A stretch of DNA of 19,750 nucleotides from the NCBI GenBank assembly GCA_900548135.1, contig URJC01000012.1, positions 1-19,750 on the forward strand, read 5' to 3'. A program made the translations under genes and the position numbers. How positions within the stretch are numbered: the stretch's first letter is position 1; each line of letters opens with the position of its first letter. Source of the DNA: an uncultured Odoribacter sp. GTDB taxonomy: Bacteria > Bacteroidota > Bacteroidia > Bacteroidales > Marinifilaceae. The notes under the pieces were generated by a model. That model saw only the letters and a program-made list of their open reading frames with translations. It was not told where the DNA came from and did not search any database. This document shows, in pieces, positions 2-18,811 of the stretch.

Positions 2-223
2 GCAAATAATGATGCGGTGCGGTTGGAGTTGTGCTGTGCGGGGAAAAATGAAAACGGCCATTGGGTTTACAGGGGTTTAGTTCCGCCACAAACTTTGGAA
101 ACCGGTTATTTGTTAGTGGTGGCGGAAGGGCAGGTGGTGACTGAAACTGCCCCATTCAAATCCCTTCTTTTAGAGGCAGGGAAGGGAGTTGCCTTTCAGT
201 TTCGATTGCCGGATATGAAATAA
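2..223 (+). CDS. C-terminal fragment of a probable fimbrillin-family protein (cut by window edge)
   Basis: The reading frame is open from the first bases of the window and stops at 221-223, leaving about 73 residues of a protein whose start lies outside. An in-frame GTG at 17 is not a credible start because the frame continues upstream of it. The visible part alternates short hydrophobic strands with turns and ends in the pattern LEAGKGVAFQFRLPDMK. Fimbrillin-like domains of Bacteroidales commonly end this way, with a 'leucine, glu/asp, x, Gly-Lys' turn before the last beta strand. The next gene downstream carries a fimbrillin domain in the same orientation 94 bases away, so a shared fimbrial locus is plausible. 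The family call rests on this tail pattern and on context; any other beta-rich surface protein remains possible. Confidence 0.45.
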   Translation, partial: ANNDAVRLELCCAGKNENGHWVYRGLVPPQTLETGYLLVVAEGQVVTETAPFKSLLLEAGKGVAFQFRLPDMK

Positions 224-317: not shown

Positions 318-2138
318 ATGATGAAAGAATCTGAAAAAATTCTATATTACTTCCGGCATAGCAGTTGTGTAGGATTGTTAGTCGGAACCTGTTTGTTGGC
401 GGGATGTTCTGATGATCCGGATACAGAAAAGGACGTTCCTGTAGGGCCTGATGTGGAAAAGACTGTTGTTCGTCTGAAAGCGGAAACCGGATTGAAACCG
501 GATGCGGCTGTGGGGGTTTTTATGCTTCCACGGGGAGGTTGGTTGCCCGAGGACGTATGTCCTGGTGCGGACAATTTGAAGTATAAACTTTCGGATACCA
601 GTACGGGAGTGCTTGTGGCGGAAGATGGCAATACACTTTTCTGGCCGGAGTCGGATAAAGCGGATTTTGTGGCTTACGCTCCTTACATAAATGCAGTTGC
701 TGCGGAAGGATATCCCATTTCGGTGGTTGATCAGAAAAAAGTGTCGGAGGAAAATGTACTTTATGCCAGAAAGACGGGAGTACTTGTCAGTGAGGCAGAT
801 GAGGTGAAATTGTCGTTTGAGCAGGCTTTGTGCAAGGTAACATTGAATTTAAAAGCGGGGGAACTGTTGGATGCGGATTTGGTAAAGGAGATTACTCCGG
901 CAAACGTGACTTTCAACCGTATACCACTGAATGCCCGTTTGGATTTGGCTGACGGGGAGGTGATACCGGAAAAGACTACAGGCGTCGTTCATCCTTTAAA
1001 GGCGGAAAATGCGGATGAGGGGTATGACGTTACTTTTTCGGTTGTGCTGATACCGCAGGAAAAAGGCCGTTTTTTGAGACGTAGTATTTCTTTCAGCATA
1101 GAGGGACGGAATTATTCAGTGGAAATAGGGGATTATACCTATCCGATGGAGGTGAATGATGACCATATTGTAATGGGAAAGACGGAGTTTGAGCCTTGGG
1201 ATATTCGGGATGGAGGTACGTTGAAGGACATGACGGAGGCATGGACTCCGGGCATGCCTTATGTTCCGTATCCCGGTATGCCGCTTCAAAGCGAAGGCAA
1301 AAGAATATATCTGATTGTCTGTGATGCGGATTCCCATGGAGAAAAAATTATGGAGGTGTTGAATAATCGCGGGTGGGCATACTCTATAAATACTGTGGAT
1401 CAGAAAAATCTGCCTCAATGTTTTTTTCCGGTACATCCGGATATCGATTTATATTTGACGGAAACTTATGCAGATCCGAATCCTGAAAATGCTCCGTGTG
1501 ATATTCTGAGTGCTTCTACTTCCGGATTTAATCTGGAAGGGGCAAGGAAGAATTTCAAGATTATGATGGATAAAAACAAATTCCCGGAATTCCCGTTGGT
1601 CATTACGAGTGCCGGTAATGGGACCAATATGTTTACTCAGGAAGCCTGGGATTTCTGTTTGGAATACGGGACATTGGAGTGGGATGATATTGTCCGTATA
1701 AAAGGTTGGGAGATAGGTGAGGATGGACGGTGGAGCGATGAGCAGGCTGCCTGGTATAAACCAGGTGATGTTAGTGCTGCATATATCATCCAGGATGTGG
1801 ATGGCTTGGGACATGCAAAAGATTATATTGTTGTCGGACGGGATGACGGCAGGGGTAACAAACCTGGTCCGATCTTGAAAGACCGTTGGATTTGTACTTA
1901 CTATTCGTTTAGAATATTTGATGTGAAAACGGACGGAACCAGTTTCAGTACTCCTTATGTGGCTAAGATTGCAGCGGAGATTAAACGCCGTGCTCCCCAT
2001 TATACGAATGACGAGATTGCCCAATTGATTTTTTCTACGGCGGATGACCTGGGTGAGCTGGGCTGTGATGAAGTTTATGGCTGGGGACGGATGAATCCGG
2101 CTAATATTTGGGAAGAGTTGACACGCAGAGGATATTGA
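318..2138 (+). CDS. Lipoprotein fusing a fimbrillin-like domain to a subtilisin-like (S8) serine protease domain
   Basis: The 606-residue product begins with a signal peptide ending in the lipobox LAGC (Cys30), so it should be a lipid-anchored envelope or surface protein. Residues about 50-298 look like a complete fimbrillin (Mfa-like) domain, with the YAPY segment near 120, the VKLSFEQALCKVTLNL strand at 163-178 and the usual closing 'PWDI' near 293. A proline-rich linker (300-327) leads to a subtilase fold. Asp336 in IYLIVCDADSHG fits the catalytic Asp, His340-Gly341 the catalytic His, SAGN at 431-434 the oxyanion Asn, and DGTSFSTP at 539-546 the nucleophile Ser542. A C-terminal YGWGRMNP at 587-594 matches the usual end of the fold. 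The Asp-His gap is far shorter than in subtilisin BPN'. The domain has six cysteines, and an exported thioredoxin-like gene follows 72 bases later. A role in pilus processing or as a surface protease is inference. Confidence 0.85.
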   Translation: MMKESEKILYYFRHSSCVGLLVGTCLLAGCSDDPDTEKDVPVGPDVEKTVVRLKAETGLKPDAAVGVFMLPRGGWLPEDVCPGADNLKYKLSDTSTGVLVAEDGNTLFWPESDKADFVAYAPYINAVAAEGYPISVVDQKKVSEENVLYARKTGVLVSEADEVKLSFEQALCKVTLNLKAGELLDADLVKEITPANVTFNRIPLNARLDLADGEVIPEKTTGVVHPLKAENADEGYDVTFSVVLIPQEKGRFLRRSISFSIEGRNYSVEIGDYTYPMEVNDDHIVMGKTEFEPWDIRDGGTLKDMTEAWTPGMPYVPYPGMPLQSEGKRIYLIVCDADSHGEKIMEVLNNRGWAYSINTVDQKNLPQCFFPVHPDIDLYLTETYADPNPENAPCDILSASTSGFNLEGARKNFKIMMDKNKFPEFPLVITSAGNGTNMFTQEAWDFCLEYGTLEWDDIVRIKGWEIGEDGRWSDEQAAWYKPGDVSAAYIIQDVDGLGHAKDYIVVGRDDGRGNKPGPILKDRWICTYYSFRIFDVKTDGTSFSTPYVAKIAAEIKRRAPHYTNDEIAQLIFSTADDLGELGCDEVYGWGRMNPANIWEELTRRGY

Positions 2139-2210
2139 TGAAAGACAGGCAAGTTGGATTTCGTTTTGAAAAATGATTATTTTATTATATACCAGATTAA
2201 TTGAAAATTT

Positions 2211-3296
2211 ATGAAAAGCATATTATTTTTAAGTTTGTTTTTTCTGAACATGTTATCGTCTGCCCAGGACCGTTCTATCCAATTTGAGACGACTTCGTTT
2301 AAAATGGCTTTGGATAAAGCCCGGGAGAACGACAAATTGTTATTCGTCGATTGTTACACCTCCTGGTGTGGTCCCTGTAAAATGCTGGCTAAAGATGTCT
2401 TTACCAATAATGAGGTGGCCGATTATTTCAACAAGAATTTTGTTGCATTTAAAGTCGACTGTGAAAAAGGAGAAGGACCCGGGATCGCTAAGCAATATGG
2501 AGTATCCGGTTATCCGACTTTGTTGTTTCTCGATGCAGACGGAAATTTAGTGAACAAGATCGTAGGTGCTACAGCCCCGGCAGCTTTTCTGGAAAAGGTG
2601 AAAAAAGGACTCGATCCTGAAACTTCTTTATACGGGAAAGAGAAAAGATATAAGGCCGGAGAACGTGATCGGGCCTTCGTACTTGACCTGATAGAATCCT
2701 ATAAAGCGATTCGTGAAACCCAAAAAGCCAGACAAGTATCCTTGGAATTATTACCTACGCTGAGTGAACAAGAGTTATTGACGAAAGAAATGTGGAATGT
2801 CGTCAGGTATTATTATGTATCTACTTATGGTTCTGAATGGTGGAATTTTATTTTGAAACATAAAAACGATTATATCGCGGTGGTGGGAGAGAAGGCCTTA
2901 AGGGATAAGGTCGGGGAAACGTTGCATCCTTATTTATTCAGTTATAGTTATGGACGTAAAAAAGCTGGAAATAGAAAGGATTTTGAAACTTATAAAGCTT
3001 TGGTCGATGAATATCAACCCCGTCAAAAGGGGATATTGTATTCCTTTATAAAGTTAGGAGAAAGTGCCAGCTTCGACAATTTCAATGGTTATTTCAAGAC
3101 TTTATTGAAAGTCGTTCCCGAAATGGATCTTTCTGAACATTACCGCTTTTTTGTAAATGCTTTGGATTTTTTAGTTAAGAACGTCGACACGAAGCAGAAA
3201 CAGCAACTGTTGGCTTTGTTGAAAGATTCTGAAGCAAAACAGAGTGATTATTTTAAACCTCTGTATCAAAAATTTTATGATAAATTGGGAGAATAA
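2211..3296 (+). CDS. Exported thioredoxin-fold protein with CGPC active site
   Basis: The 361-residue protein starts with a cleavable-looking signal peptide (about residues 1-19, ending SSAQ), placing it in the periplasm or outer envelope. Residues about 22-135 form a thioredoxin domain with the active site WCGPCK (Cys53, Cys56) and the cis-proline loop GYPT (Pro102). Such proteins reduce or exchange disulfides in exported proteins. The remaining 220 residues are mostly helical and charged with no motif I can name; this long extension is common in Bacteroidota thioredoxin-family proteins and probably binds a partner. The ATG at 2211 is chosen because the signal peptide begins there. The gene lies 72 bases after the cysteine-containing fimbrillin-subtilase gene on the same strand, which suggests cotranscription, although no promoter or terminator was recognised between them. 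Confidence 0.85.
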   Translation: MKSILFLSLFFLNMLSSAQDRSIQFETTSFKMALDKARENDKLLFVDCYTSWCGPCKMLAKDVFTNNEVADYFNKNFVAFKVDCEKGEGPGIAKQYGVSGYPTLLFLDADGNLVNKIVGATAPAAFLEKVKKGLDPETSLYGKEKRYKAGERDRAFVLDLIESYKAIRETQKARQVSLELLPTLSEQELLTKEMWNVVRYYYVSTYGSEWWNFILKHKNDYIAVVGEKALRDKVGETLHPYLFSYSYGRKKAGNRKDFETYKALVDEYQPRQKGILYSFIKLGESASFDNFNGYFKTLLKVVPEMDLSEHYRFFVNALDFLVKNVDTKQKQQLLALLKDSEAKQSDYFKPLYQKFYDKLGE

Positions 3297-4585: not shown

Positions 4586-4648
4586 AAATACTAAATTAAT
4601 GTGTATATTAGCAACCTCATTCCTAGATATAAAAATAAATCATCATAT

Positions 4649-7600
4649 ATGCATAAAAATCTGTTTTTGTGTGGGGTATTCATTTTGTTTATGATGTCCG
4701 CAGTTATTGGGAAAGCACAACTATTGAGAATAAATGGTTGGGTCATGGATGAGAGGGGTAAACCTTTGGCCGGGGCTTCTATTCGGGTAAAAAATACTAC
4801 GTTGGGAACAACAACGGATAAGGATGGAGGGTTCGTTTTGCAGCAAAGGACAGAGGGAAAAACACTGGTTGTTTCGTTTATGGGAAGAAAGACCGTTGAA
4901 ATACTTGCATATCCCGGGATGCGTGTGGTGCTTCCGTTGGAAAATAAAGAACTGGAGACTGCTTTGGTACAGGTTGCCTATGGAAATTTGAGCAGATATG
5001 CCCTGACAGGTGCAGTATCATGGGTTGAAAATCGGAAGATTACTTTACGTCCTGTGACAAACGTTACTTCGGCTTTGGAAGGTACAGTGCCTGGTATCTT
5101 AGTTAATAATACTTACGGTCAACCGGGAGATGCTCCTCAGATACGGATACGGGGATTTAATTCTGTCAATGGAGTGAATGAGCCGCTCTACATTGTAGAT
5201 GGCGTCCCCTTTGAAGGACGGTTAGCGGAGATCAATCCCCTGGATGTGGAAAGTGTTTCTGTTTTGAAAGATGCGGCAGCCGCAGCCCTTTATGGTAATC
5301 GTGCAGCAAACGGTGTAGTACTGATCAGCATGAAAAAAGCGGATAGCAGGAATTTGTCGATGGAATTGACTGTGCGTCAGGGAATATATGCTCAGGGGAT
5401 GAAAGACTATGATTGTGTGGGTACAGATGAATTTATGGAGGTCATGTGGAAAAGCTACCGCAATTCCCTGTTGACTACCAGTGCAGGTAATTATCCTACT
5501 GTGGAGCTGGCAAATGCTAAAGCAAGTGCGTCGCTGGTTCAGAATATACTGGGCTATAATGTATACAATCTGGCGGACGACCAGCTTTTTGATGCAGAAG
5601 GGCATTTGGCAGAAGGGGCAGTGGTCAGGGAAGCGATCCGGGAAGATTTGGATTGGTATAAACCCTTATCGCGGAAAGGATTCCGGCAAGAATATTTATT
5701 GAGCGGAGGGGCGGTTCATGATATCAGTGATTATCGTTTTTCATTGGGATATATGGATGAAGAAGGTTTTTTGAAAAATGCTGGTTTTAATCGGTTGACT
5801 GCACGCTTACAGATGAATGTATCGCCTAAATCATGGTTGGGATGTGGGTTGGCTTTGTCCGGAAATCACCAGAATCAGGATATTACGGATGGAACAGATA
5901 ATACTTATGTCAATGTTTTCAATGTAGCCCGTTATGTGGCTCCGATTTATCCGGTGCATTTACATGATCTCTCTACAGGGGAATATATACTGGATGAGCA
6001 GGGGAATAGAAAATATGATGATGGCAGTGCAAATGGACGTAAACAAAATGTAGGCAGAAATATTGTATGGGAAAACGAGTTAAATCAAAATAGGCTGACC
6101 AAAACTGCACTGACCGGACAGATCTATGCAGATGTGAAATTGCCGGCAGGATTCACTTTTACTTTGAAAGGTGACTTGTATTTGGCAAATCAGGAAAGGA
6201 GGAAGTTTCTGAATACAGAAATCGGCGATGGTATCGGTGTGGGTTGGAATTATCGTTACCAATACCGTTTTAAGCGTTATGTTTTTCAAGAACAATTAAA
6301 CTGGTTACGCCAATTTGGAGAACACCAGGTAGGAGTGTTGCTGGGACATGAAAATTATTATTACGATTATCAATATACAGGTTTGGCAAAGTCAGACCAG
6401 ATCTTACCGGATAATCTCGCTTTAAGTAATTTTATTTCCATGAAAGGTTTAACTGGTTATTTGCAAAATTACCGTACAGAGAGCTATTTAGGAAGGATTC
6501 GTTATGACTATGGCGGGAAATATTTTGCGGAGATTGCTTTCCGGAGGGATGGTTCCTCCCGTTTTCATCCTGATCATCGTTGGGGGAATTTTGGAAGTGT
6601 CGGATTAGCCTGGCTTATTTCACGGGAGAATTTCTTACAGGAAATCAATTGGTTGAATTATCTGAAATTACGTTTTTCTTATGGGGAAGTGGGTAATGAT
6701 GCTAGTTTGGATTATTATGCCTGGATGTCTTTGTATAAAATTGTTGTGAATGGAGGTAATGCAGCAGTTTATAAATCTCAGCATGTGGCAGAAGATATTA
6801 AATGGGAAGCGAATGTTTCTTATGATGCAGCTTTGGAGGCTCGTTTGTTTAAGCGTCTAAATCTGACATTGGAATATTTTGATAAACGTTCGAAAGACTT
6901 GTTGTTTGATGTTGCTTTGCCTTTGTCTGCAGGGGCTACTTCAACAGATGCCAGTGAACTGGCCAGTATAACCCGTAATTTAGGGAGTGTTTCTAACCGG
7001 GGATGGGAATTTTCTGCTGATATTGATCTCATTCATACAACAGCCTGGCATTGGAATATCGGATTGAATGCGACGGTGATGAAAAATAAAATTCTCACTT
7101 TACCAGAAGAAAACAGGAAGACAGGTATTGTGGTGGCTGGTCAAAATCAAAAATATATGGAGGGACACAGTATTTACGAATGGTGGCTTCCGTTATATGC
7201 AGGAGTGGATCGGTTGACAGGAAATGCTTTGTATATCCCGGACCAGGAAAAATACTATATGGAGAATGCGGAAGCAGGGAAAGATCCTTTTCCGGAGGAC
7301 GATCTGGTGAAAATAGGAGATACTTACTATACCACCAATACCAGTTTTGCGCGTAAAGATTGGTGTGGAAGTGCCTTGCCTAAGTTGTTCGGTAGCTTTT
7401 CTTCGGATCTGAGCTGGAAAGGAATTTCATTTTCTGCCTTATTTACTTATTCTATAGGTGGTAAAATTTACGATGAATCTTATGCTTCCTTAATGGCTAC
7501 CGGTAAAACTCCAAGGGCAGTTCACCGGGATATATTGAACTCCTGGGAGAAAGTTCCGGATGGAATGACCGAAAATTCTCCTGACCGGATTGACCCGGAT

Positions 7601-7894
7601 GGAATCCCTGTTGTGAATGCTGATCTAAGTGTCCGTAATAATGCTGTTTCTTCCCGTTTTCTGATTGATGGCTCTTATTTGTGGGTGAAAAATATCACGG
7701 CTGCCTATACTCTACCGGGTAATGTAGTGAAGAAGTTGGATCTGCAAGGGATTCGTGTTAATTTTTCGTTTGAGAATGTGGTGATGTTTACTAAAAGAAA
7801 GGGAATGAATCCACAACAATCTTTCAGGGGATTAAGTGAAGACGTATTAGTTGCACCTAGAGTGATTTCACTAGGGTTAACCATTAAATTGTAA
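4649..7894 (+). CDS. SusC/RagA-family TonB-dependent outer-membrane receptor
   Basis: The product imports a ligand through the outer membrane using TonB energy, working with the SusD lipoprotein encoded next. I place the start at ATG 4649, giving 1081 residues, because the signal peptide MHKNLFLCGVFILF...KAQ begins there; a GTG at 4601 would add 16 polar residues before it. After cleavage comes a carboxypeptidase-regulatory-like beta domain (about 27-105), a TonB-box-like VQVAYG segment near 108-113 and a plug domain (about 115-230) with the SusC hallmarks EPLYIVDGVP and VLKDAAAAALYGNRAANGVV. The rest is a long barrel ending in RVISLGLTIKL. There is no N-terminal STN domain, so it is probably not a sigma/anti-sigma transducer. 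SusD starts four bases after the stop. The substrate cannot be read from the sequence; no glycoside hydrolase is nearby. Confidence 0.95.
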   Translation: MHKNLFLCGVFILFMMSAVIGKAQLLRINGWVMDERGKPLAGASIRVKNTTLGTTTDKDGGFVLQQRTEGKTLVVSFMGRKTVEILAYPGMRVVLPLENKELETALVQVAYGNLSRYALTGAVSWVENRKITLRPVTNVTSALEGTVPGILVNNTYGQPGDAPQIRIRGFNSVNGVNEPLYIVDGVPFEGRLAEINPLDVESVSVLKDAAAAALYGNRAANGVVLISMKKADSRNLSMELTVRQGIYAQGMKDYDCVGTDEFMEVMWKSYRNSLLTTSAGNYPTVELANAKASASLVQNILGYNVYNLADDQLFDAEGHLAEGAVVREAIREDLDWYKPLSRKGFRQEYLLSGGAVHDISDYRFSLGYMDEEGFLKNAGFNRLTARLQMNVSPKSWLGCGLALSGNHQNQDITDGTDNTYVNVFNVARYVAPIYPVHLHDLSTGEYILDEQGNRKYDDGSANGRKQNVGRNIVWENELNQNRLTKTALTGQIYADVKLPAGFTFTLKGDLYLANQERRKFLNTEIGDGIGVGWNYRYQYRFKRYVFQEQLNWLRQFGEHQVGVLLGHENYYYDYQYTGLAKSDQILPDNLALSNFISMKGLTGYLQNYRTESYLGRIRYDYGGKYFAEIAFRRDGSSRFHPDHRWGNFGSVGLAWLISRENFLQEINWLNYLKLRFSYGEVGNDASLDYYAWMSLYKIVVNGGNAAVYKSQHVAEDIKWEANVSYDAALEARLFKRLNLTLEYFDKRSKDLLFDVALPLSAGATSTDASELASITRNLGSVSNRGWEFSADIDLIHTTAWHWNIGLNATVMKNKILTLPEENRKTGIVVAGQNQKYMEGHSIYEWWLPLYAGVDRLTGNALYIPDQEKYYMENAEAGKDPFPEDDLVKIGDTYYTTNTSFARKDWCGSALPKLFGSFSSDLSWKGISFSALFTYSIGGKIYDESYASLMATGKTPRAVHRDILNSWEKVPDGMTENSPDRIDPDGIPVVNADLSVRNNAVSSRFLIDGSYLWVKNITAAYTLPGNVVKKLDLQGIRVNFSFENVVMFTKRKGMNPQQSFRGLSEDVLVAPRVISLGLTIKL

Positions 7895-7897
7895 ATT

Positions 7898-9451
7898 ATG
7901 AGGAATCAGATTCTTTTGTTCTGTATGGTTGGAATCTGCTTTATTGCTGTTTCCTGTACAGGAGATTTTTTGGATACTGCTCCGGAAAACCAAACCGGTT
8001 CAGCAATTGTATTTGAAAAAACGGAATATGCTGATATGGCAGTAAACGGAATTGCAAAATTGATGAATACTCCATTTTTCTATCCGGATAAAAATACTCC
8101 AAAGACAGCTGAATTTAATGGAGAAGGGGCTATCAAAATGATCAATGGGAATTGGATGGGGAATCATTTTGTTTGTTCAAACCGGGATGGATATGGAGTT
8201 TTGTATAAAGGGACCAATTATATGTCGAATACTTCTTCGGTATATTGTTTTTATCCCTGGTGGTATTATTATATGATTATTGGAAATGCCAATACCATTG
8301 TTACCCACATTGCATTGGCGGAAGGGGTAGAAACTGACCGGCAACGGATTTTGGCACAGGCACTGACTTTCCGGGCGTATGCTTATACGATGCTGTCGCA
8401 AATATATTGTAAACGGTGGATGGATTCGGATGAAGGTAATGCGGATGGGGTGGTACTTCGTTTGACAGATTCATATGAAGCCCTGAAATTGTGTACGTTA
8501 AAGCAATTGTATAAACAGATATATGATGATTTGGATGAAGCTATTCGTCTCTTTAAACTTTCCGGGTTTGTAAGAGAAGGAAACAATCATCTTCCGGATA
8601 TACATGTGGCATATGCGATTTATGCGCGTGCAGCTTTAGTCCGTCAGGATTATAAAACTGCTGCTGCAATGGCAGTTGCAGCCCGGGAAGGTTTTCCTTT
8701 AATGACTAATGCTGAATATAGTCAGGGATTTAATGTGCCTGTTTCTGAGTGGATTTGGAGTAGTCGTAATTCCGGCGATGAATCTATCGGGCAATATGCT
8801 TTCTTTGCCCGGATTGCTTACAATTCGAGGATTACAGAAGCTTATAATTATAGTAAGTGTATTAGTAAAGAATTGTATAACCGTATTCCTCTGACGGATA
8901 TCCGGCGTCGGTTGTTTTTGAATCCCGAAGGGTACAGTTACAATTCCTCTACCGGATTGGCAAGTAAGGATTTAGCAGCTTATGCCCGGACTTTGTATGC
9001 TGATATTTACGATAAATCGCCGGTGTATGCCTATATGCAATTTAAGTTTAAGGCAAGCGATAATACGGGTGCCGGCGATGTGAATCACATCCGGGCTGCT
9101 GAAATGTATCTGATAGAGGCAGAAGCAGATTATTATCTCCATGATGAAAAAGGTGCATGTGAAGCTTTGATCGCTTTGACTAAAGATTCAGGACGTGACC
9201 CTGAATATACTTGTAGTAAAACAGGGAGAGAGTTGTTGGAAGAAATAAAGTTATACCGGGCGATAGAATTGTGGGGAGAAGGTTTTGACTGGTTTGACAT
9301 GAAACGGTGGGGAGATACTATTGAACGGAAAACATTTGACAAGGGTGGAAATTTTACTGCGAAAACTGGCTTCACTACCCGGCCGGATGAAAATAATGGT
9401 TGGTGTTGGTTGATCCCTGAGCTTGAAACTGATTATAACCCCGAAATATAG
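7898..9451 (+). CDS. SusD/RagB-family surface lipoprotein
   Basis: This 517-residue protein should be the substrate-binding lid of the SusC transporter encoded just upstream. Its signal peptide ends in AVSC, giving Cys20 as the lipidation site, followed by the typical DFLDTAPE segment. The helical repeat region includes the common SusD pattern AQALTFRAYAYTMLSQIY (about residues 153-170), and the C-terminal part contains EMYLIEAEADYYL and YRAIELWGEGFDWFDMKRWG, both standard for the family. The chain ends in LIPELETDYNPEI, close to the usual 'IP..E...NP' ending. It starts three bases after the SusC stop codon, so the two are surely cotranscribed. Aromatic residues are abundant, but none can be assigned to a ligand site without a structure. 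Confidence 0.95.
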   Translation: MRNQILLFCMVGICFIAVSCTGDFLDTAPENQTGSAIVFEKTEYADMAVNGIAKLMNTPFFYPDKNTPKTAEFNGEGAIKMINGNWMGNHFVCSNRDGYGVLYKGTNYMSNTSSVYCFYPWWYYYMIIGNANTIVTHIALAEGVETDRQRILAQALTFRAYAYTMLSQIYCKRWMDSDEGNADGVVLRLTDSYEALKLCTLKQLYKQIYDDLDEAIRLFKLSGFVREGNNHLPDIHVAYAIYARAALVRQDYKTAAAMAVAAREGFPLMTNAEYSQGFNVPVSEWIWSSRNSGDESIGQYAFFARIAYNSRITEAYNYSKCISKELYNRIPLTDIRRRLFLNPEGYSYNSSTGLASKDLAAYARTLYADIYDKSPVYAYMQFKFKASDNTGAGDVNHIRAAEMYLIEAEADYYLHDEKGACEALIALTKDSGRDPEYTCSKTGRELLEEIKLYRAIELWGEGFDWFDMKRWGDTIERKTFDKGGNFTAKTGFTTRPDENNGWCWLIPELETDYNPEI

Positions 9452-9499: not shown

Positions 9500-10746
9500 T
9501 TATTTAGTTATTATTTGTTTTTTTCCATGTTTGATGATTAGTTCAATACTTTTCAGGTTTTCAATATTGTGTAGGGGATTGTCTTTTAGGATCAACAGAT
9601 CGGCTTTTTTTCCAATGTTAACGAGCCTGTTTCTTTTTCGATTCCCAGAGCTTCTGCTGCGATGAGAGTGGCAGACCGGATAGCGTCCAGAGTAGTAAAA
9701 CCACATTGATTGACATACAGAGTGATTTCATCAAAAAGGAAAGGGTAGGCACGGGAGAGATCATTGATATAATCGGTACCGGCACAGATTTTGACGCCGT
9801 CCTGGTAGGCTTTTTTCACTACGTCTGCCGACCATTCCATATTGTTCACCATGCATAAATAGAGGGTTGGATCAAAGATTGCTCCCTGCTTTTTCACTGC
9901 TGTGATGAAAGGTGAGGAATTAATATGCTGGTGGTCAATTTTAGAGTAAAAAAGCTCGTAGTTTTTGAAAAAATCTTCAGACAGGGGGTCGGGGACATTT
10001 TCCCATTCCAGTAAATAGGCATGCGAGATGACTTCCATTCCTGCCTCTGCAACATCCTTGGGTTTGGCCGGAAAAAGAGCTGCGTGTCCCCATATTTTCA
10101 GTCCTTCTGCTTTTGCAGCTTTTACCAGAGGAAACAATTCTTCACGGGTAAAGCCGCCATATATTTTTATACCGGTGGCTCCGCAATTTTTAGCTGCTTT
10201 CATTGCTTGTTGCAAGTCTGCTCCTGGCTGAATACATTGTAACCAAGGAGCAAAGGTGGTATCTAGTCCGGCAACCATGTTTTTCTCCCGGTCATTATCC
10301 TTATAATAGGGTGGACCTGCAATAAAAGCGGCATAATGAATATCGGGACCTGCTATTTCTCCGGTGCGGACTCCGTTTTGTAAGTCTCTTAAAATACGGG
10401 CATCTCCTGCTGCATCGCGGATTGTCGTAATACCATGCAGTAAGAAATACTCCAAATGACGGATCCGGTCTGTCCGGCTTTCCTTAGGATCATTGGAGAG
10501 GTGAACATGGGCATCGATCAGACCAGGTATGGCATAGGCTCCTTTCAGATCCAGTGTATCGACTGAATGAGTGTGTTTGATCCGGGGGCGGATGGCTTTT
10601 ATTTTTCCGTTTTGGATAAGCAATTGAGTAGGTTCACTGAATTCACCTTTCCCGAAATCCAGTATTCGAACATTCCGGAGCAATAAATCCTGACTTTGAC
10701 CTTTCCAGATGGTAAAGGTCAGTAATAGAAAGAATAGAATCTTCAT
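9500..10746 (-). CDS. Exported metal-dependent amidohydrolase, reading frame broken near the C-terminus
   Basis: The protein would be a secreted binuclear-metal hydrolase of the amidohydrolase superfamily, in the imidazolonepropionase/prolidase-like branch. It has a signal peptide (about residues 1-18) and the expected ligands in order: HVH at 80-82, Lys194 in TGIKIYGG, His221, His242 and Asp325 in CAGTDY. The zero frame ends early at 9592 as ...SLTLEKKPIC (384 residues). The frame one base back continues with ADLLILKDNPLHNIENLKSI and stops at 9500. That is exactly the conserved closing strand of the family, and would give about 415 residues. The switch lies in a run of seven A residues. It could be a lost base, a sequencing slip or a -1 frameshift site. 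The gene starts six bases after the TlpA-like gene and is last in its operon; a dipeptidase role is inference. Confidence 0.8.
9604..9610 (-). other. In-frame A AAA AAG heptamer, candidate -1 frameshift site
   Basis: On the coding strand the zero-frame codons are GAA AAA AAG, so the heptamer A AAA AAG is in the phase needed for tandem -1 slippage, as at the E. coli dnaX site. Slipping back one base makes the next codons GCC GAT CTG, restoring the family ADLLIL motif and 34 further codons. Only a weak 4-bp GATC/GATC hairpin (9590-9601) follows, and no strong Shine-Dalgarno-like stimulator lies upstream. Indel error in the A run is the simpler alternative. Confidence 0.4.
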
Positions 10747-10752
10747 GGGCTT

Positions 10753-11838
10753 TTATTTTTTTAGAAAGATATTGATTTCTTCTTCTGTCGGATTTGTGGC
10801 TATTATTTTGCCCGAAGGGTCGATCAGGTAAACAGTTGGAACTTGGTTGACTTTATAGGCTTGGCGGACCATGCTGTTCTTAAAGCCAGCCGGATCATTC
10901 AATTGTGTCCAGGAGACTTTGTCTTCTTTTACGGCTTTCAGCCATTGTTGCTGCTGATCATCCAGGGAAATAGAAATCACTTCCAGCCCCTGTTCCTTTA
11001 ATTCAGGATAGTGTTTATACAGTTCTTTGTTTTTTTCCCGGCAAGGAGCACACCAGGAGGCCCAAAAATCAACCAGGACATATTTGCCCCGATAATCAGT
11101 TAAAGCCACTTTTTTCCCTTGTATGTCTGGTAGAATGAAAGCGGGAGCTTCACCGGTTAATTGTGCCGCTTTTAGTTGCTCGTAGGTCTTTATAATCTGT
11201 TCTTTCATCCCGCAATCCGGCAGGCTGTCCCCAAGTGCTTCTATTGCCTGGGTGAATGATTTGTAGCTATTTTCATAGAAATACAGCACCCGGTAGATGA
11301 TGTATTGGGCAATTTCTGTACCGGCAAACTGACGGATTCCGGTTAAACGGAAGGCTTCATTGTCCGCAAATTGCCGGGACAGAACGGCGCTTCGTTCTGC
11401 TTTGTGATGGATATCACTGATGGTATCATAGCCCATTGACAGACGGTTGTAGGTTTCCTCTCTGTTGTTTGCTTCCTGTAAATAGGTTGTAAAACGATTT
11501 TGCAAGGAAGAGGAATCTGCGGAGATAAAATAATAATGTCCGTTTTTTTCTATTAGGGTATAATGTTGATTTTCAGCATAAATTGGAATTTTGATATAAT
11601 CTTTGTCCAATTGGACAATGAGCAGACTACCGGAAGGAATTTGACCTTCTAAACTGAAACTGCCATCAGTTTGTATAGGCAGAGTGAATAGACTGCTGTC
11701 CCGGTGAGTATGGGGAAGGCGTAAGTGTAATTCCTGGCTTTGGGGTATTTTTTCAAACTTTCCACTTAAGCGGAAAGACGGAGATTGCTGACAGGCAACC
11801 AAAAGCAAGATACAGATTGAAAATAAATAGGTTTTCAT
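10753..11838 (-). CDS. TlpA-type thiol-disulfide oxidoreductase lipoprotein
   Basis: I start this gene at ATG 11838 (361 residues); a TTG two codons earlier is less likely. The signal peptide ends in LVAC, so Cys16 should be lipidated and the protein envelope-anchored. The N-terminal part (about 20-110) is beta-rich and resembles the DUF4369-type domain often found before redoxin domains in Bacteroidota. A helical middle segment follows (about 110-225). The redoxin/TlpA domain (about 230-358) carries FWASWCAPCRE with active-site Cys263 and Cys266 and the cis-proline loop QVPT (Pro334). It should reduce disulfides or thiol substrates outside the cytoplasm. It follows the PKD-like gene after 116 bases, the longest gap in this operon and the site of a hairpin, and precedes the amidohydrolase by six bases. 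Confidence 0.9.
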   Translation of the reverse strand: MKTYLFSICILLLVACQQSPSFRLSGKFEKIPQSQELHLRLPHTHRDSSLFTLPIQTDGSFSLEGQIPSGSLLIVQLDKDYIKIPIYAENQHYTLIEKNGHYYFISADSSSLQNRFTTYLQEANNREETYNRLSMGYDTISDIHHKAERSAVLSRQFADNEAFRLTGIRQFAGTEIAQYIIYRVLYFYENSYKSFTQAIEALGDSLPDCGMKEQIIKTYEQLKAAQLTGEAPAFILPDIQGKKVALTDYRGKYVLVDFWASWCAPCREKNKELYKHYPELKEQGLEVISISLDDQQQQWLKAVKEDKVSWTQLNDPAGFKNSMVRQAYKVNQVPTVYLIDPSGKIIATNPTEEEINIFLKK

Positions 11839-11887
11839 AAACAATTATTTTGGATGAAGGGGAATTGGAATGATTAGGGAAATCCTC

Positions 11888-11923
11888 TGTATTCCTGTTA
11901 TTTTAAATAACTGTAAGAATACA
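11888..11923 (-). promoter_or_regulatory. Two-part hairpin in the gap before the TlpA-like gene
   Basis: TGTATTC (11888-11894) pairs with GAATACA (11917-11923), and inside it GTTAT (11897-11901) pairs with ATAAC (11907-11911), leaving small unequal internal loops. No T run follows on the coding strand. It may mark a processing or partial-termination point that sets different levels for the lipoprotein genes and the downstream enzymes, or a new transcript start nearby. Confidence 0.4.
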
Positions 11924-11954
11924 AAGGACTTCCGGACAATCTGGAATTAGGATG

Positions 11955-13331
11955 TTATTCTTTGTAAATCATCTCAACGATTTCTCCGGCTATTCCCGTT
12001 TCATGCCATAATTCAGTACGGGTTTTATTGTCGAAACAATAAACATCTCCTATGTATTCTCCGTCACTGGAATTTACAGCGATATACAATTTGGATTCAT
12101 CCGGGCTTAAAATCATGGTTTTTATTACATCTCCGTCTTTACCTACGATGAAATCCGGTTGGCTTTGGAAATGTCCCTGTGAGCTATAGTCGTAACGGAA
12201 TACCTTGTTTCCGACGGAATAATACAGGATGACGGATTCCTGGCTGGCAAGAAAAGCACTGTGTGTCGTGATTCCGCTTCCTGTAACCGGAGTGACAGAA
12301 TGTATCACGGGAACCAGAGGGGAAATATCTACAATTTCTATGATGCCTGTCGTCTTATGCTGCACAAAAACTAACGCTTCTTCTCCATGTTTGCAAGGGA
12401 TCATATCGACCAGGGTTTTTCCTTTGAAAGTTTCTGGTAATAAGGAAGAACATTGCCATTCTCCGTATAATAACATGCCAAATGTATTGTCATAGAAAAG
12501 AATGTCGTCGCTGTATTTTCCATTATATAAACGCATTCCTTTGTCTGCCAGATATGCACCCGGGTACATCATTTCCAGCATTTTTTGAGGGGCGTTCATG
12601 TAACCATCCTGACTGTTGTCGAAACTTAACATCTTGCCTCCCCCTAAGAAAGTGAGTCCAAAGGAACCACTGCTATTACCGATCATATACTTCAATTCCG
12701 GGTCAGGATTGGGAATCTTTTTCTCGGCTGCAAAAGTTTTGTCGTTCACTAGAACAATTTGAGTCGGATCTTCGGTCGCAATGTAAAGTTTGCCAGCCTG
12801 TTGCAATAAAGCTGTTGGTTTCTTACCCAAAGATACCAGGGGATTATTCAGGCTGTAGGCATTTAATTGAAATTTCGTATTTTCAATGTCTTCACGTTTA
12901 AAAGATACCATCGAGCCGTTATTGAATTGGCTTAGTACGACCAGGCCTTCTTCGTATGGGGAAGTTACTTTCAATCGAAAATCCAGATAGGCTTCTCCGT
13001 CTTCGTTTGAGACGATCAGCCTACCCTGTACACCTTGGTCCTGGGTCAATTCAGTACATAAATAAGTCAGGTCTTTTTCTTTAGATACTTCTTGATAGTT
13101 GATTTCCCAACGGTAACTAACCGGTTTTGCCTGGTAAGTTTGTTCAATTTCCGGGGCTTCCAGTTTAAATTCAGACCATTGGTCACAACGATAGGGGTCC
13201 TTTTCAAATTGAGTTTTGAATTTGATCTGGGATATATGATTTAATCCCAAATCAGATTTATCATCTATGCATGAAGCAAAGAGTAATATCAGAATTCCTA
13301 AAAGATAATATTTTTTCATAATGATATTCAT
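11955..13331 (-). CDS. PKD-like family surface lipoprotein
   Basis: The 458-residue protein begins with a signal peptide ending in FASC (Cys21). The ATG at 13331 is used; an in-frame ATG at 13319 would give the more usual MKKYYLLG start and cannot be excluded. Residues about 25-130 form a beta-sandwich region with YRWEIN and RLIVSNEDGEAYLDFRLKV, typical of the PKD-like lipoprotein family found with SusCD pairs. After the YEEGLVVLS segment (about 132-140) the rest is a series of short beta repeats resembling a propeller, for example SPDESKLYIAVN near 413-424. No catalytic residues are evident. It lies 11 bases after the DUF4843 gene. In family context it probably helps SusD hold or present the substrate at the cell surface, but its ligand is unknown. 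Confidence 0.8.
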   Translation of the reverse strand: MNIIMKKYYLLGILILLFASCIDDKSDLGLNHISQIKFKTQFEKDPYRCDQWSEFKLEAPEIEQTYQAKPVSYRWEINYQEVSKEKDLTYLCTELTQDQGVQGRLIVSNEDGEAYLDFRLKVTSPYEEGLVVLSQFNNGSMVSFKREDIENTKFQLNAYSLNNPLVSLGKKPTALLQQAGKLYIATEDPTQIVLVNDKTFAAEKKIPNPDPELKYMIGNSSGSFGLTFLGGGKMLSFDNSQDGYMNAPQKMLEMMYPGAYLADKGMRLYNGKYSDDILFYDNTFGMLLYGEWQCSSLLPETFKGKTLVDMIPCKHGEEALVFVQHKTTGIIEIVDISPLVPVIHSVTPVTGSGITTHSAFLASQESVILYYSVGNKVFRYDYSSQGHFQSQPDFIVGKDGDVIKTMILSPDESKLYIAVNSSDGEYIGDVYCFDNKTRTELWHETGIAGEIVEMIYKE

Positions 13332-13342
13332 TTCATGATTAA

Positions 13343-14038
13343 TTATTCAAATGGCCACCAAATATTTTCTTCAAAAATGAAGCCCGCTTCCGGATGTTCC
13401 TGGGCGTAATCGTAGACCTGGGTTTTGAAGGCATACATGATTTCCAGATAAGAGGCAGTGGCTTGCTCTCCCTTTTCAGGGCTGCCGTAATAAGCTATCA
13501 AACGCTGGTATTTGCCGGGTTGGTAAGGACCTGTACTACCTAAGTTGGGAGTCCACCATGCGGGTTCCTCCAGGTAGTTATTCATGGTCAGTACGGCTGT
13601 CAGGCTTTCTGTAATGCCTGTCTGGAATTCATCGTTTGCCACTAATTTCAGAACTAAGCGGAAAGAGGTGTCCGTGTCGGGCATTTTATCCCGGATAAGT
13701 TCTATCGGAAAGTAGGCATTTACGGAATCCGGTAGTAAAGAGTATTCCTCTTGTAACGCAACATAGTGAATGTCTTTTTGGGCTGTACTTTGGGCTTCAT
13801 CTACTTCGATTTTGTATTTCATCTCGTGTGTAGCTTTCATTCCCAGCATCTTCACCGGATAATAGAACGTATGGCGGGTATATTCTGCCAATTGATCCCC
13901 GAAGGAATAATTGAGACTGTCTGCATTGAAATAGATTCGGGGTATATTGTCATAGAAACCGTCGGTATTGTCTTCACAGGCTGTAAATCCGATGAATAGC
14001 ATCGTGATACCCAATATATTATAAAATATCTTTTTCAT
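13343..14038 (-). CDS. DUF4843-type surface lipoprotein
   Basis: The 231-residue product has a signal peptide ending in FTAC (Cys21), then CEDNTDGFYDNIPRIYFN, which resembles the start of DUF4843 proteins. The middle is beta-rich and includes DTSFRLVLKLVANDEFQTG. A tryptophan pair sits at EPAWWTPN and another closes the chain (IWWPFE). Proteins of this family are encoded between SusD and PKD-like lipoproteins in Bacteroidota uptake operons, as here, with 11-base gaps on both sides. The likely role is an accessory surface-exposed substrate binder. No enzyme motif is visible, and the family has no settled biochemical function that I know of. Confidence 0.8.
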   Translation of the reverse strand: MKKIFYNILGITMLFIGFTACEDNTDGFYDNIPRIYFNADSLNYSFGDQLAEYTRHTFYYPVKMLGMKATHEMKYKIEVDEAQSTAQKDIHYVALQEEYSLLPDSVNAYFPIELIRDKMPDTDTSFRLVLKLVANDEFQTGITESLTAVLTMNNYLEEPAWWTPNLGSTGPYQPGKYQRLIAYYGSPEKGEQATASYLEIMYAFKTQVYDYAQEHPEAGFIFEENIWWPFE

Positions 14039-14049
14039 TTTCTTCAGAG

Positions 14050-15534
14050 TTATTTGTTAGTGTTTCCGAATTCTTTCTCATCTTCAGGCCAGGGGAGAAT
14101 AAAGATGGCATTGGAAGGAGCTATGGTTACATTTACTTTTGACGGACTGGTAAATCCTTCATATTGATATTTGTGTTCGAAGAAAGTCTGACCTTCTCCC
14201 CAGAATTCTTTCAGTCGTTCTTTCATTAGTTCTTGTCTGAATTTCTCTTTGGAATCGAGTCGGTTGGCTTGCATGTCCATTAAACCACGGCTATTGCGCA
14301 CTGCATTGAAGTAGGCGATGGCCTGGGTTGGATTGGAGTCATAGAGAGCTTCTGCTGCAATGTAATACATCTCTGGCAAACGCAGTAGGCATATTCCTTT
14401 TATCGCTTGTTCCTGTGCAGAGGAATTGCTGGCTTCTTCTTCTAGAAAACGACTGAAAGAGATGTTCGTACTATCAACTACATAATCAAAAAATTCATCG
14501 TAACGGTAATCATGATCATCTGGCCCGAGAGGGGTTTCTTTGTAAATCTTTTCGTAATCTTTCCGGACCTCTAAGCGGGTATCACTACCGGTAGCTTGTC
14601 GTTTGGCAATGAACATTTTATAGAGAGGAGTGTATAATTTGTTATTAAACAATCCCCAGATTAATTCCTGGTTTCCTGGATATTTTTTAGCCTTTTTCAG
14701 GTCATTATGGGAATTGATCAGGTGCAATTGGCTGGAAGAAATTATTTTTTCAGCATAGATTCCGGCACTGTCCAGATCACCTTTGAATCTGAATACTCTG
14801 GCTTTGATTCCGTATACGGCATAAAGGTTTACCTGGGTGTAACGGTTGTTCCGGTAGGGAGAGGAATTACTTCCCGTAGAAAGTAACGTGTCATTCGCCA
14901 ATAAATATTGGGCTGTATTCAAGTCTTCTAATATATTCTCATACGTTTCTTTTAGTGTGAACAACTGTTTGTTCTGTAAATCGAATGTGTAAGCATAGGG
15001 GATACCTCCGGCTGTCGGATTACGTCGTATATCGTCACAATACAACCGTAATATGTCAAAGTGGAGAAAGGCCCGAAGGGCGTAAGATTCTCCCTTAATC
15101 AAACGATAGTCCGGATCAGCATTCAGATTGACGGAAGCAATGTTGCCCAATACGTTATTGATATAGGAAATACATTTGTAGGAATTTGTCCAGATGCCTT
15201 CTACTGTTGGTTGTACTGACTGGTCTGCATAGTTATATTCCTGTATTTTCTGTACTTTCTGATAATAATCTCCCAGAGAGTGGGAAGGATAGAAAAGTTG
15301 CCCCAATTGTTCTACAAAACCAAAACTCAGATTTTCACCATAAAGGACACTTTGGGCCATGCTGGCATAAATACCATACATAGCATCCCGGTAACCTTGT
15401 ATGTCTTCAAATATTTTATCCTGAGTCACTTTTCCCGCCGGATTTACATCCAGAAAACTGTCGCATCCTGAGAAGGTCATAATAGCCAATAACCCCATGG
15501 AAAATCGATATAATATTTTTTTCATAGTATTCAT
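14050..15534 (-). CDS. SusD/RagB-family surface lipoprotein (STN-SusC operon)
   Basis: The 494-residue protein carries a signal peptide ending in FSGC (Cys24), followed by DSFLDVNPAGKV. The ATG at 15534 is used; ATG 15525 is the alternative. Helical SusD features include GESYALRAFLHFDILRLY (about residues 148-165), RLPEMYYIAAEALYDSN and LMKERLKEFWGEGQTFFEHK. It ends in ILPWPEDEKEFGN, an ending I associate with the SusD subgroup encoded beside DUF4843 and PKD-like genes. This differs from the SusD at 7898-9451, which ends in ETDYNPEI, so the two pairs are probably not recent duplicates. It begins nine bases after the SusC stop codon. Its natural SusC partner is frame-broken in this sequence, so whether it still takes part in transport is uncertain. 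Confidence 0.93.
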   Translation of the reverse strand: MNTMKKILYRFSMGLLAIMTFSGCDSFLDVNPAGKVTQDKIFEDIQGYRDAMYGIYASMAQSVLYGENLSFGFVEQLGQLFYPSHSLGDYYQKVQKIQEYNYADQSVQPTVEGIWTNSYKCISYINNVLGNIASVNLNADPDYRLIKGESYALRAFLHFDILRLYCDDIRRNPTAGGIPYAYTFDLQNKQLFTLKETYENILEDLNTAQYLLANDTLLSTGSNSSPYRNNRYTQVNLYAVYGIKARVFRFKGDLDSAGIYAEKIISSSQLHLINSHNDLKKAKKYPGNQELIWGLFNNKLYTPLYKMFIAKRQATGSDTRLEVRKDYEKIYKETPLGPDDHDYRYDEFFDYVVDSTNISFSRFLEEEASNSSAQEQAIKGICLLRLPEMYYIAAEALYDSNPTQAIAYFNAVRNSRGLMDMQANRLDSKEKFRQELMKERLKEFWGEGQTFFEHKYQYEGFTSPSKVNVTIAPSNAIFILPWPEDEKEFGNTNK

Positions 15535-15543
15535 TGTTTTATC

Positions 15544-18500
15544 TTAAAAGCTGGTACTTAAAGAAAATTCAAAACTCCGGGCAAACGGATAGTCAAACCC
15601 GCGTTCTTGTTTGACGGATGAAGTCCTGAATACGTCATTCATCAAAAATTCTATTCGTAGACGGTTTAAATGCAGTTTACTGTAAATTTTCGGACTGAAA
15701 TCATAAGCCAGACTCAAAGAACGTAGACTTAAGGTATATTCATCTTCTATAAACCGGCTGGTTTGCAGAGGAACAGAGGTATCTGCGATGTCTTTGTATT
15801 TCACATGGTCACCCACTTCTTTCCAGCGGCTGTCGAATACCCGGTGATCAGCATTGTTTTGAGGATTGGCTCCCTCTACCCGGGTTACCAGGGTTTGATT
15901 GTAAATGGTTGCTCTTAGCTTGTAGTCAAACATCAGGTTCAATGAGATCCCTTTGAAAGTGAGGTAGGAACCGATGATCCCATATACTTTGGGATCAGAA
16001 TCTCCATAAACTTTTTTGTCATGATAATCGTATTTGAAAGTGGGTTTACCCTGGCGGTTGATGTAGATTTCCTGACCGGTTGCCGGATCTATACCTCCGG
16101 ATGGTACTGCTTTGATGGCACTTATCGATTCTCCTTCTTCGTAAACCGGCTTAGGGGTAACAGAATTTTCGGCGTTGTTTTCTTCATTCAGGTTTTTTAG
16201 GTAGTTACTGATTTTTTTAATTTTATTCCGGTTGTGTGTGGCTGTCAGGGAAAGTGCCCAATCCCAGTTTTTGTTTCGTAAGGCAATGACACGGGTACGG
16301 AATTCTATCCCACTATTGTCGATTTTTCCCATGTTTTCTGTTGCTGAGGTTACTCCGATTGAAGGTGCTTTAGAAACATCCAATAGCAGATTATCAGTGA
16401 TTTTTTTGTAATAGTCTACCGTAACATCCAGTCGGTTCTGAAACAGATTGACATCCAATCCGATATTGTAAGTCAGCGTTCTTTCCCATTTCAAATCTGG
16501 ATTACCGATAGTGATCGGAATGGCACCGATTCCTTTTTCATAATAAAGATCAGATTTGTATTCATAAGTGGTCAAAGCTTGATAGGGAGAAAAACTGGCA
16601 TTTCCCAAATAACCGACACTGGCACGTAGTTTCAAACGGTCTGTAGGATTTGCTTTGAAAAAGTTTTCTTTGTGTATGTTCCAACCTCCACCGATGCTCC
16701 AAAAAGGAGCATAACGTTGATCAGACCCAAATTTAGAAGAACCTTCTTCCCGGATAGATAAATCGACAAAATAACGGTCTTTGAAAATTATATTGGCATT
16801 CAGGAAACCTCCTAAGCTGCGGTCCAGGTCTTCAGAACCTGAGGGGGAACTGCCTGAGGGATATTGCGAAGCAAATCCGGGATGGGCTAATTTGTCAGAG
16901 AAAATACCAATGCCTGTATATCCGTTACGGTTGATAGAAGTCGATTGGATATTGCCTCCGGCTAAAATACTCATCAAGGTTCCTTCTCCAAAAAATTTGT
17001 TGTAGCTGAGGAGTAATTTTCCCTGATAAGCGATTTGTTTATTGTTGGAAATAGTGATTCTTCCTTTTTCATTGGTTGCAGAAGTAGAAAATTCTTTGGA
17101 TAGAGGAGAAACAAATACTTCTGTGTCATTTTTGTATTTTGTTAAAGCAAACGAACCTTCAATACGCAGTCCTTTTATGATTTCGAATCTCATATCCAGA
17201 GTATTGTTGATATAGAAATCTTCACCTCGGTTATAACTTCCAAGAGTCGCTTCATATAAAGGATTTTTATGTCCATAGGAAAGGTTATTATTCAAGGTCC
17301 CGTCTAAATTGTAAGCGCGGTCATAGGGATTTAACTTTACAAATTCTGAGAAAGAACCATAAGGAGATTCTTCATTGTTGACAGAAGATATTGTGGTTTG
17401 GTTTTGGATGAAAATTTTTTCGTCTTTGTTGTATGAAAGTTTGAAATTCAAGGAATAACGTCTTCTTTCAGAACCTTTCATTACTCCCCGGTCATTCCCA
17501 TAGCGTACTCCCAGGTTGTAACGGACATAATTGTCTCCACCATATATGCTGACATTGTGGTTATTTGTGAAGGCATTTCTCAAGGGTTTGGAGATCCAGT
17601 CGGTATTCACCCCCTCGCGGATTCGCTGAAATACTTCATTGTACAGTTGGTCTAAGGCGTATTGTTGTGCGCCCGGACCATATTGGTAGGTGTAAAGATT
17701 AGCCCGTTTTTCATATTCCAGTTTTTCAGCTGCATTCAAGAGGTGGTAATCGCTTAACAGAAGCTTTGAAAGTACCGGTGTAAGAAACTTTCATTTTTCC
17801 TCCTTGAATTGCTTTGGTGGTGATCACAATGACACCATTCGCTGCTTTTGCTCCATATAATGCTGATGCAGAAGCATCTTTTAATACTGTTGCCGACTCT
17901 ACATCGTTGATATCCATATCAAAAATGTAATCCAGGCTAACTTCGGCTCCATCAACAATAAAGGTGGGAACATTACTTCCTGTCGCAAAACTGCTTCGTC
18001 CGCGGATGAGAATCTCCGGGCGAGTATTCGGATCAGAGCCCCGTTCATTATTCTCTACTAATTGCATACCTGGAATGAAAGCCTGTAAACTTTGCAAAAT
18101 ATTTTTGGTACCTACGCTTAATAATTCATTCCGGGAAACAGTTTGAGCTGAACCGGTAAAACTTGCCCTTGATTTTGTTCCAAAACCGGTTACTACGACA
18201 TCTTCTAAAGTTTGATTGTCATTTTCCAGGATGATATTATAATCGGTCTTGTTTTTGGTTATTTTTAATTCGTAGGATTTCATGCCGATAAAAGAGAAAA
18301 CCAGGATTGTATTGGCATCCGGTATAGTTAAAGTAAATTTACCGTCTGCATCTGTAGCTACACCTAAAGCAGTTCCTTTGATTGCAACAGAAACTCCCGG
18401 AAGAACATCACCTTGCTGGTCAGTTACCTTACCTGTAATATTAATGCCTTTCACTTGTGGAAGTTGATTTACTGTTCTGGAGGAGATAATCACATGGTCA

Positions 18501-18811
18501 TTCAATATTTCATAGGTCAGTGGTGTGTCGGTGAGGACGAGATCCAGAATTTCTTTTACGGTTTTTCCTGTGATATCACTGTGACAAGTATATCCTTGTA
18601 CATCCTCGTGATTGAATACAAATTTTAATTCAGTTTTTTTCTGCATTTGTTGAAAGAGCTGAACCAGATTCACCTGATTTGATTTTAGGTTGATCCGTTT
18701 TTCCTGTGACCAGACGGTTGCATTCAGACCAGTGTAGCCTAATGTGATAATCAGGCACATGAGCTTAATCTTAATCATGATCCGGATAAGATTTTGATTT
18801 GTTTTTTTCAT
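15544..18811 (-). pseudogene. STN-domain SusC/RagA-type TonB-dependent receptor, frameshifted after the plug domain
   Basis: The first frame (18811-17726, 361 residues) holds a signal peptide (about 1-36), an STN domain (about 41-112) for signalling to FecR, a carboxypeptidase-regulatory-like domain (about 123-202), the TonB-box region DVVVTGFGT and a plug with VPTFIVDGAE and TVLKDASASALYGAKAANGV. It then reads GTFKASVKRLPPLECS and stops. The +1 frame takes over with LSDYHLLNAAEKLEYEK and runs through the whole barrel to LSTSF at 15544 (731 residues counted from a non-standard TTG at 17739). Family members usually have a few residues such as 'PDL' before SDY, so about 2, 5 or 8 bases appear lost. 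No homopolymer run lies at the break, so a real mutation is more likely than a simple base-calling slip. Repaired, the protein would be about 1085 residues. It would transport and also signal through FecR. Confidence 0.85.

Follow-up and report, generated by a model that had tools for sequence, protein, structure and literature searches.

A fimbrillin-like domain fused to a compact subtilase in a lipoprotein from an Odoribacter-related member of the Bacteroidales

We analyzed a stretch of 19,750 nucleotides (the window) from a Bacteroidales bacterium related to Odoribacter, in which the plus-strand gene at 318..2138 encodes a 606-residue lipoprotein that combines a fimbrillin-like domain with a compact subtilase. 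This two-domain protein is real, and it resembles a tethered enzyme for protein digestion more than it does a component of a pilus. The reading that we favor, with a probability of about 0.5, is that an anchor-type fimbrillin serves, within a surface lipoprotein, as a non-polymerizing stalk for a protease of external proteins or glycoproteins.

The open reading frame starts with a signal peptide and the lipobox LAGC, ending at Cys30 (318..407). Pfam placed an Mfa_like_1 domain at residues 57 to 283 (E = 7e-27, 95.4 bits against a cut-off of 27), within a fimbrillin-like beta-sandwich that spans residues ~50 to 298 (465..1211) and ends close to Trp294. In the fold model (mean pLDDT of 68), this part matched 4k4k with an E-value of 3e-14, a TMt of 0.61 and an rmsd of 5.9 Å. 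A linker carrying the motif WTPGMPYVPYPGMP (residues 309 to 322; 1242..1283), which the alignment also revealed in standalone lipoproteases, leads to the S8 catalytic domain at residues 328 to 606 (1299..2135), where the structure model shows a subtilisin fold. Peptidase_S8 was detected by Pfam at residues 537 to 590 (E = 4.5e-12), with just the last 54 of the 288 profile positions aligning, and NCBIfam matches to mycosin and fusolisin, both far under the cut-off, covered the same C-terminal stretch. An Rfam search of the sequence gave no match. The E-values together with the fold rule out a chance domain call.

A preliminary description of this DNA had proposed the fusion of a fimbrillin with an S8 protease in one lipoprotein; both domains were recovered by profile HMMs and by fold, and the structure prediction that it had suggested modeled the beta-sandwich as well as the subtilase. 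Its choice of catalytic residues also held, as all four are invariant in 20/20 aligned proteins, the window protein included. They are the catalytic Asp336 at the end of the first strand (1323..1325) and the catalytic His340, four residues further on (1335..1337), both placed by alignment and model, and, by alignment, the oxyanion-hole Asn434 within SAGN (1617..1619) and the nucleophile Ser542 within DGTSFSTP (1941..1943).

Regarding location, the lipobox Cys of the window protein is followed by an acidic signal (CSDDPD), the SDDPD part of which resembles the Bacteroidetes surface-export signal. Among 48 family members examined, 46 carry at least two Asp or Glu within the five residues that follow the lipobox Cys; the count omits fragments and distant members (P0034, P0036, P0037, P0051 and P0054 to P0059), and the lipobox pattern picked the wrong Cys in P0004. 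In PMC5080379, SDDDD is described as the likely surface-export signal of B. fragilis, functional in Capnocytophaga. The sequence is thus suggestive of surface exposure.

The active site is unusually compact. In a wider alignment of 50 rows, 38 proteins keep all four catalytic residues, 11 have substitutions, and one (P0051) is a fragment whose N-terminal part is missing; the start of P0054 diverges, which makes its placement unsure. This tabulation omits the family matches P0034, P0036, P0037, P0041, P0043, P0057, P0059 and P0060, of which P0041, P0043 and P0060 were inspected separately. Among the 38 intact rows, 37 have an Asp-His spacing of four residues; the exception, P0058, has nine. As a control we took 26 subtilase frames from Bacteroidales loci and searched them with a loosened pattern; both motifs were readable in 17 and unreadable in 9, and in the readable ones the spacing ranged from 27 to 56. 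It is approximately 32 in subtilisin numbering, a wide separation being usual for S8 enzymes and not strictly defining. Pfam found no prodomain in the standalone member at locus L001. The subtilase belongs to a rare compact family without a recognized prodomain.

Protein searches yielded overlapping sets of matches, at least 21 in the first, and 55 and 57 in two others. Fourteen of the 21 matches listed for the first search are proteins of 337 to 354 residues that have the protease without a fimbrillin domain. The full fusion, which the preliminary description had proposed to look for in other genomes, was found in five database proteins (P0002 to P0006, 51 to 99% identical; the window protein is P0001). 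When a tree was built from 52 catalytic domains and rooted by midpoint for drawing only, the six fused proteins formed one group (100/99), and the rows nearest to it were standalone lipoproteases, mostly of ~345 residues. A single gain of the fimbrillin part is the simplest reading of this tree. The alignment sets the fusion boundary directly before the shared motif. Most likely, a standalone lipoprotease gained the fimbrillin part in a single insertion that fell between its lipobox and its protease.

The N-terminal modules of the family differ, being absent in some members and of the Mfa_like_1, BACON or cadherin-like type in others; the BACON domain of P0038 scored over the cut-off and the cadherin-like match of P0052 below it. 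In P0055, P0056 and P0059 this compact subtilase is preceded by different N-terminal regions; the longest contigs listed are 2.06 Mb for P0055 and 0.99 Mb for P0059. Full-length members are rare among the genomes searched. Within the order of the Odoribacter metagenome-assembled genome (MAG) G001, 38 of 393 genomes had a match at an E-value of 1e-3, only two of which were full length, the other 36 being short C-terminal matches, and in the order of G003, 1 of 395 genomes had a member at 1e-15. Long matches to the protease part of P0001 were obtained in only 2 of 56 genomes (G001 and G002). A scan of genome contigs with P0001 alone gave no match, a second scan with query A1 gave three loci, and viral contigs gave two short C-terminal matches. 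In the open-access literature, outside which subscription papers mostly fall, we found no report of a fimbrillin-subtilase fusion or of a SusC/SusD-linked subtilisin-like lipoprotein, and no paper on BACUNI_00621 or on a Bacteroid subtilase pseudoprotease.

We then considered whether the fimbrillin part could be processed as in a pilin. According to PMC5789003, shaft and tip fimbrillins carry an exposed Arg in the loop that follows the first strand and are cut there; in the anchor Mfa2, which remains uncut, this loop contains neither an Rgp nor a Kgp site; and some fimbrillins have putative Lys sites. Our search for comparators gave 22 open reading frames, of which one without an N terminus and three copies or near-copies were dropped; the resulting 18 distinct frames, from the family of G001, were supplemented with P0021 and P0022. 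With the position judged by eye on sequence segments, the loop Arg was present in 20/20 comparator fimbrillins, compared with 0/6 fused proteins, the window protein among them. In the window protein the loop lies between modeled strands 52-57 and 64-71 and contains Lys60 and no Arg. Arg52 starts the first of these strands, before the loop, with equivalents in P0002 and P0003 and not in P0004 to P0006.

The occurrence of Lys60 in the loop, together with the putative Lys sites of other fimbrillins, means that the fused protein could still be cleaved. The two parts also lie in one chain, and the protease might cut the leader strand of its own fimbrillin and start polymerization, as the preliminary description had envisaged for a self-processing subunit. 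We regard this as highly improbable, since the loop Arg is absent, the loop is short in P0001 to P0003, and most of the family members found lack a fimbrillin domain that could be cut. Nor is the Lys retained: it is followed by Pro in P0001 and P0002, Lys-Pro bonds being poorly cut, and P0004 has a Lys in the region, but it is replaced by Gln in P0003, and the loops of P0003, P0005 and P0006 contain no Lys. Without the loop Arg, the fimbrillin most likely retains its first strand and remains tethered by its lipid in the manner of an anchor fimbrillin, serving as a stalk and not as a subunit that polymerizes.

The window copy carries one further peculiarity. At the Asp272-Tyr273 junction (1131..1136) it lacks, in frame, nine residues that all five fused relatives found have in the alignment, and its fimbrillin domain scored 95.4 bits in Pfam versus 119.8 bits for P0002. 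This represents either real variation or an assembly error.

Downstream of the fusion gene, the plus strand encodes a 361-residue thioredoxin-domain protein (2211..3296; Pfam). Its best match in the 56 genomes is in G001 (66% identity, E = 6e-160), where it is the next gene after the protease, and the second best is in G002 (59%, E = 7e-143), where it is the next but one; the third reaches only 36% (E = 5e-61). Weaker relatives are widespread, with 46 of the 56 genomes at an E-value of 1e-30 or better, and some of them attain identities of up to 49% over shorter stretches.

We read the neighborhoods of three relatives. In L001 and L002, two loci of Odoribacter MAGs, a standalone protease follows genes for SusC, SusD (importer-type genes) and three further proteins; SusC and SusD of L001 and all L002 gene names were assigned by eye. 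Pfam identified DUF4843 and PKD_2 among the L001 genes before the protease, and after it a thioredoxin protein with two thioredoxin stretches, GH84, an alpha-L-fucosidase, presumably of family GH29, and GH3. In L002 the protease is followed by a 314-residue protein without a Pfam match, a thioredoxin and a fucosidase-like gene. The third locus, L003, from a Flavobacteriaceae MAG, encodes a 311-residue member with no SusC/SusD genes nearby. Thus, two of the three neighborhoods are of the SusC/SusD type; fimbrillin genes, for which the preliminary description had proposed to check the neighbors, were not beside these genes in L001 and L002, and the Mfa_like_1 matches of these two genomes lie on other contigs. 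In the window itself, SusC and SusD genes (4601-9451) are separated from the 318-3296 region by a 169-residue open reading frame and gaps. On the minus strand, 9592-18811 carries SusC-, SusD-, DUF4843/PKD-like-, TlpA- and amidohydrolase-like genes, named by eye, and is probably a second uptake locus; the amidohydrolase is 55 to 56% identical to genes of G010 to G013, from the same family as G001.

These neighborhoods bear on the possibility that the fused protein belongs to a type V pilus as its anchor or a minor subunit, with the protease as pilus cargo or as the enzyme that matures partner pilins. Its Mfa_like_1 domain does lack the loop Arg in the manner of an anchor, and the 3' end of the upstream gene (2..223, plus strand, 73 residues) bears a weak likeness to the end of an Mfa_like_1 domain. 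The preliminary description had called this fragment fimbrillin-like; the resemblance stands, albeit with no Pfam match. As the window begins at this perhaps fimbrillin-like gene end, a link to a pilus locus could exist. Mfa_like_1 domains with extra C-terminal sequence are, moreover, common in related genomes: in G009, 25 of 42 matches are in open frames of at least 550 residues, and locus L077 of this genome is a tandem array of Mfa_like_1 regions, most of ~560 to 630 residues, many with similar C-terminal ends. Against this, most relatives of the protease are without a fimbrillin domain, two of the three loci read are of the SusC/SusD type, the N-terminal module is swapped or missing in other members, and Pfam detected no fimbrillin among the four downstream plus-strand open reading frames tested in the window. 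A role as pilus component thus appears rather unlikely, and the pilus-processing reading is not supported. The earlier proposals of a maturation enzyme and of a protease displayed at a pilus tip likewise find no support; the idea that an anchor-like pilin domain displays the protease holds in part, with the domain as a stalk and not as part of a pilus.

Another S8 gene, near an Mfa_like_1 cluster of G009, was considered as a pilin protease and rejected. At L075 (12068-15525), downstream of Mfa_like_1 genes, an AAA ATPase gene directly precedes this gene, whose product is a 786-residue subtilase that has no lipobox start and belongs by eye to another family; the two look like an independent ATPase-subtilase pair.

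Catalytic residues are lost in some members of the family, and catalysis may therefore not be the whole function of the family. Three or four residues are lost in P0032, P0033, P0039, P0040, P0042, P0045, P0048, P0049, P0050 and P0053, Pro replaces the catalytic His in P0028, and all four residues are lost in P0041, P0043 and P0060. As we read the tree, the losses fall in three places, namely a group of 12, P0032 and P0028. In the L002 member (9869-10900), Tyr, Asp and Arg stand in for the His, Asn and Ser, and the protein is likely, from its sequence, a pseudoprotease; it is identical to P0033 at 333 of 343 residues and occupies the same operon place as the intact L001 protease. The helix segment KIAAEIKRRAPH (residues 550 to 561; 1965..2000) is mostly retained even in such members, with Lys550, Glu554 and Arg558 kept in 50/50 rows and Arg557 in 49/50. 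These residues may mark a second, binding function, or structure only.

It may be, then, that this lipoprotein mainly binds peptides or glycoproteins, and that catalysis is dispensable or vestigial in the family. The substitutions in 11 of the 50 aligned members, the exchange of an intact for a dead protein at one operon place, and the invariant C-terminal residues fit this idea, but the latter may be structural, and all six fused rows keep the four catalytic residues in register. The fused branch therefore looks to be under selection for catalysis, and we consider a mainly binding role quite unlikely for it. A wider reading, which we put forward tentatively and with low confidence, is that of a separate compact family of Bacteroidota cell-surface subtilases that has lost the Asp-His loop. 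Its older function would be to bind substrates or present them to a SusC/SusD-thioredoxin importer of host glycoproteins, and N-terminal modules, including a repurposed fimbrillin that does not polymerize, would set the reach above the membrane. With binding or presentation as the older common function, catalysis could be lost repeatedly.

In the favored stalk reading, the product would be an outer-membrane lipoprotein, probably surface-exposed, with the compact subtilase borne on the fimbrillin-like beta-sandwich. The protease most likely acts at the cell surface on extracellular proteins or glycoproteins, which it would cut there, and the neighboring thioredoxin-like protein would act on disulfides of the products after uptake. 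This suggests that a pilin-type domain can be reused as a fixed enzyme carrier, and it separates having a fimbrillin domain from making a pilus. The existence of a compact subtilase family that comprises intact as well as dead members, some in loci of the SusC/SusD type, would be relevant to the attack of gut bacteria on host glycoproteins.

Compared with known systems, the window protein shares with type V fimbrillins (4k4k, which is BACUNI_00621; Mfa_like_1, PF13149) the beta-sandwich, the lipobox and the Trp near the domain end. It differs from them in continuing into a protease and, in the window copy, in lacking nine residues near the domain end; no pilus locus was seen in the neighborhood that the window covers. 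The missing loop Arg sets it apart from shaft and tip fimbrillins and is shared with the anchor Mfa2 as described in PMC5789003. P0021 (PF03781) and P0022 (PF09479) likewise have an N-terminal Mfa_like_1 followed by a second domain; unlike the fused proteins, they keep the loop Arg and have no subtilase domain listed. Relative to the S8A subtilases fusolisin (8axg), Serratia Ssp (8e7f), subtilisin BL (1st3) and PatA (3zxy), the family of the window protein differs in its four-residue Asp-His spacing, and the window protein itself in aligning to only the end of the Pfam profile and in being lipid-anchored.
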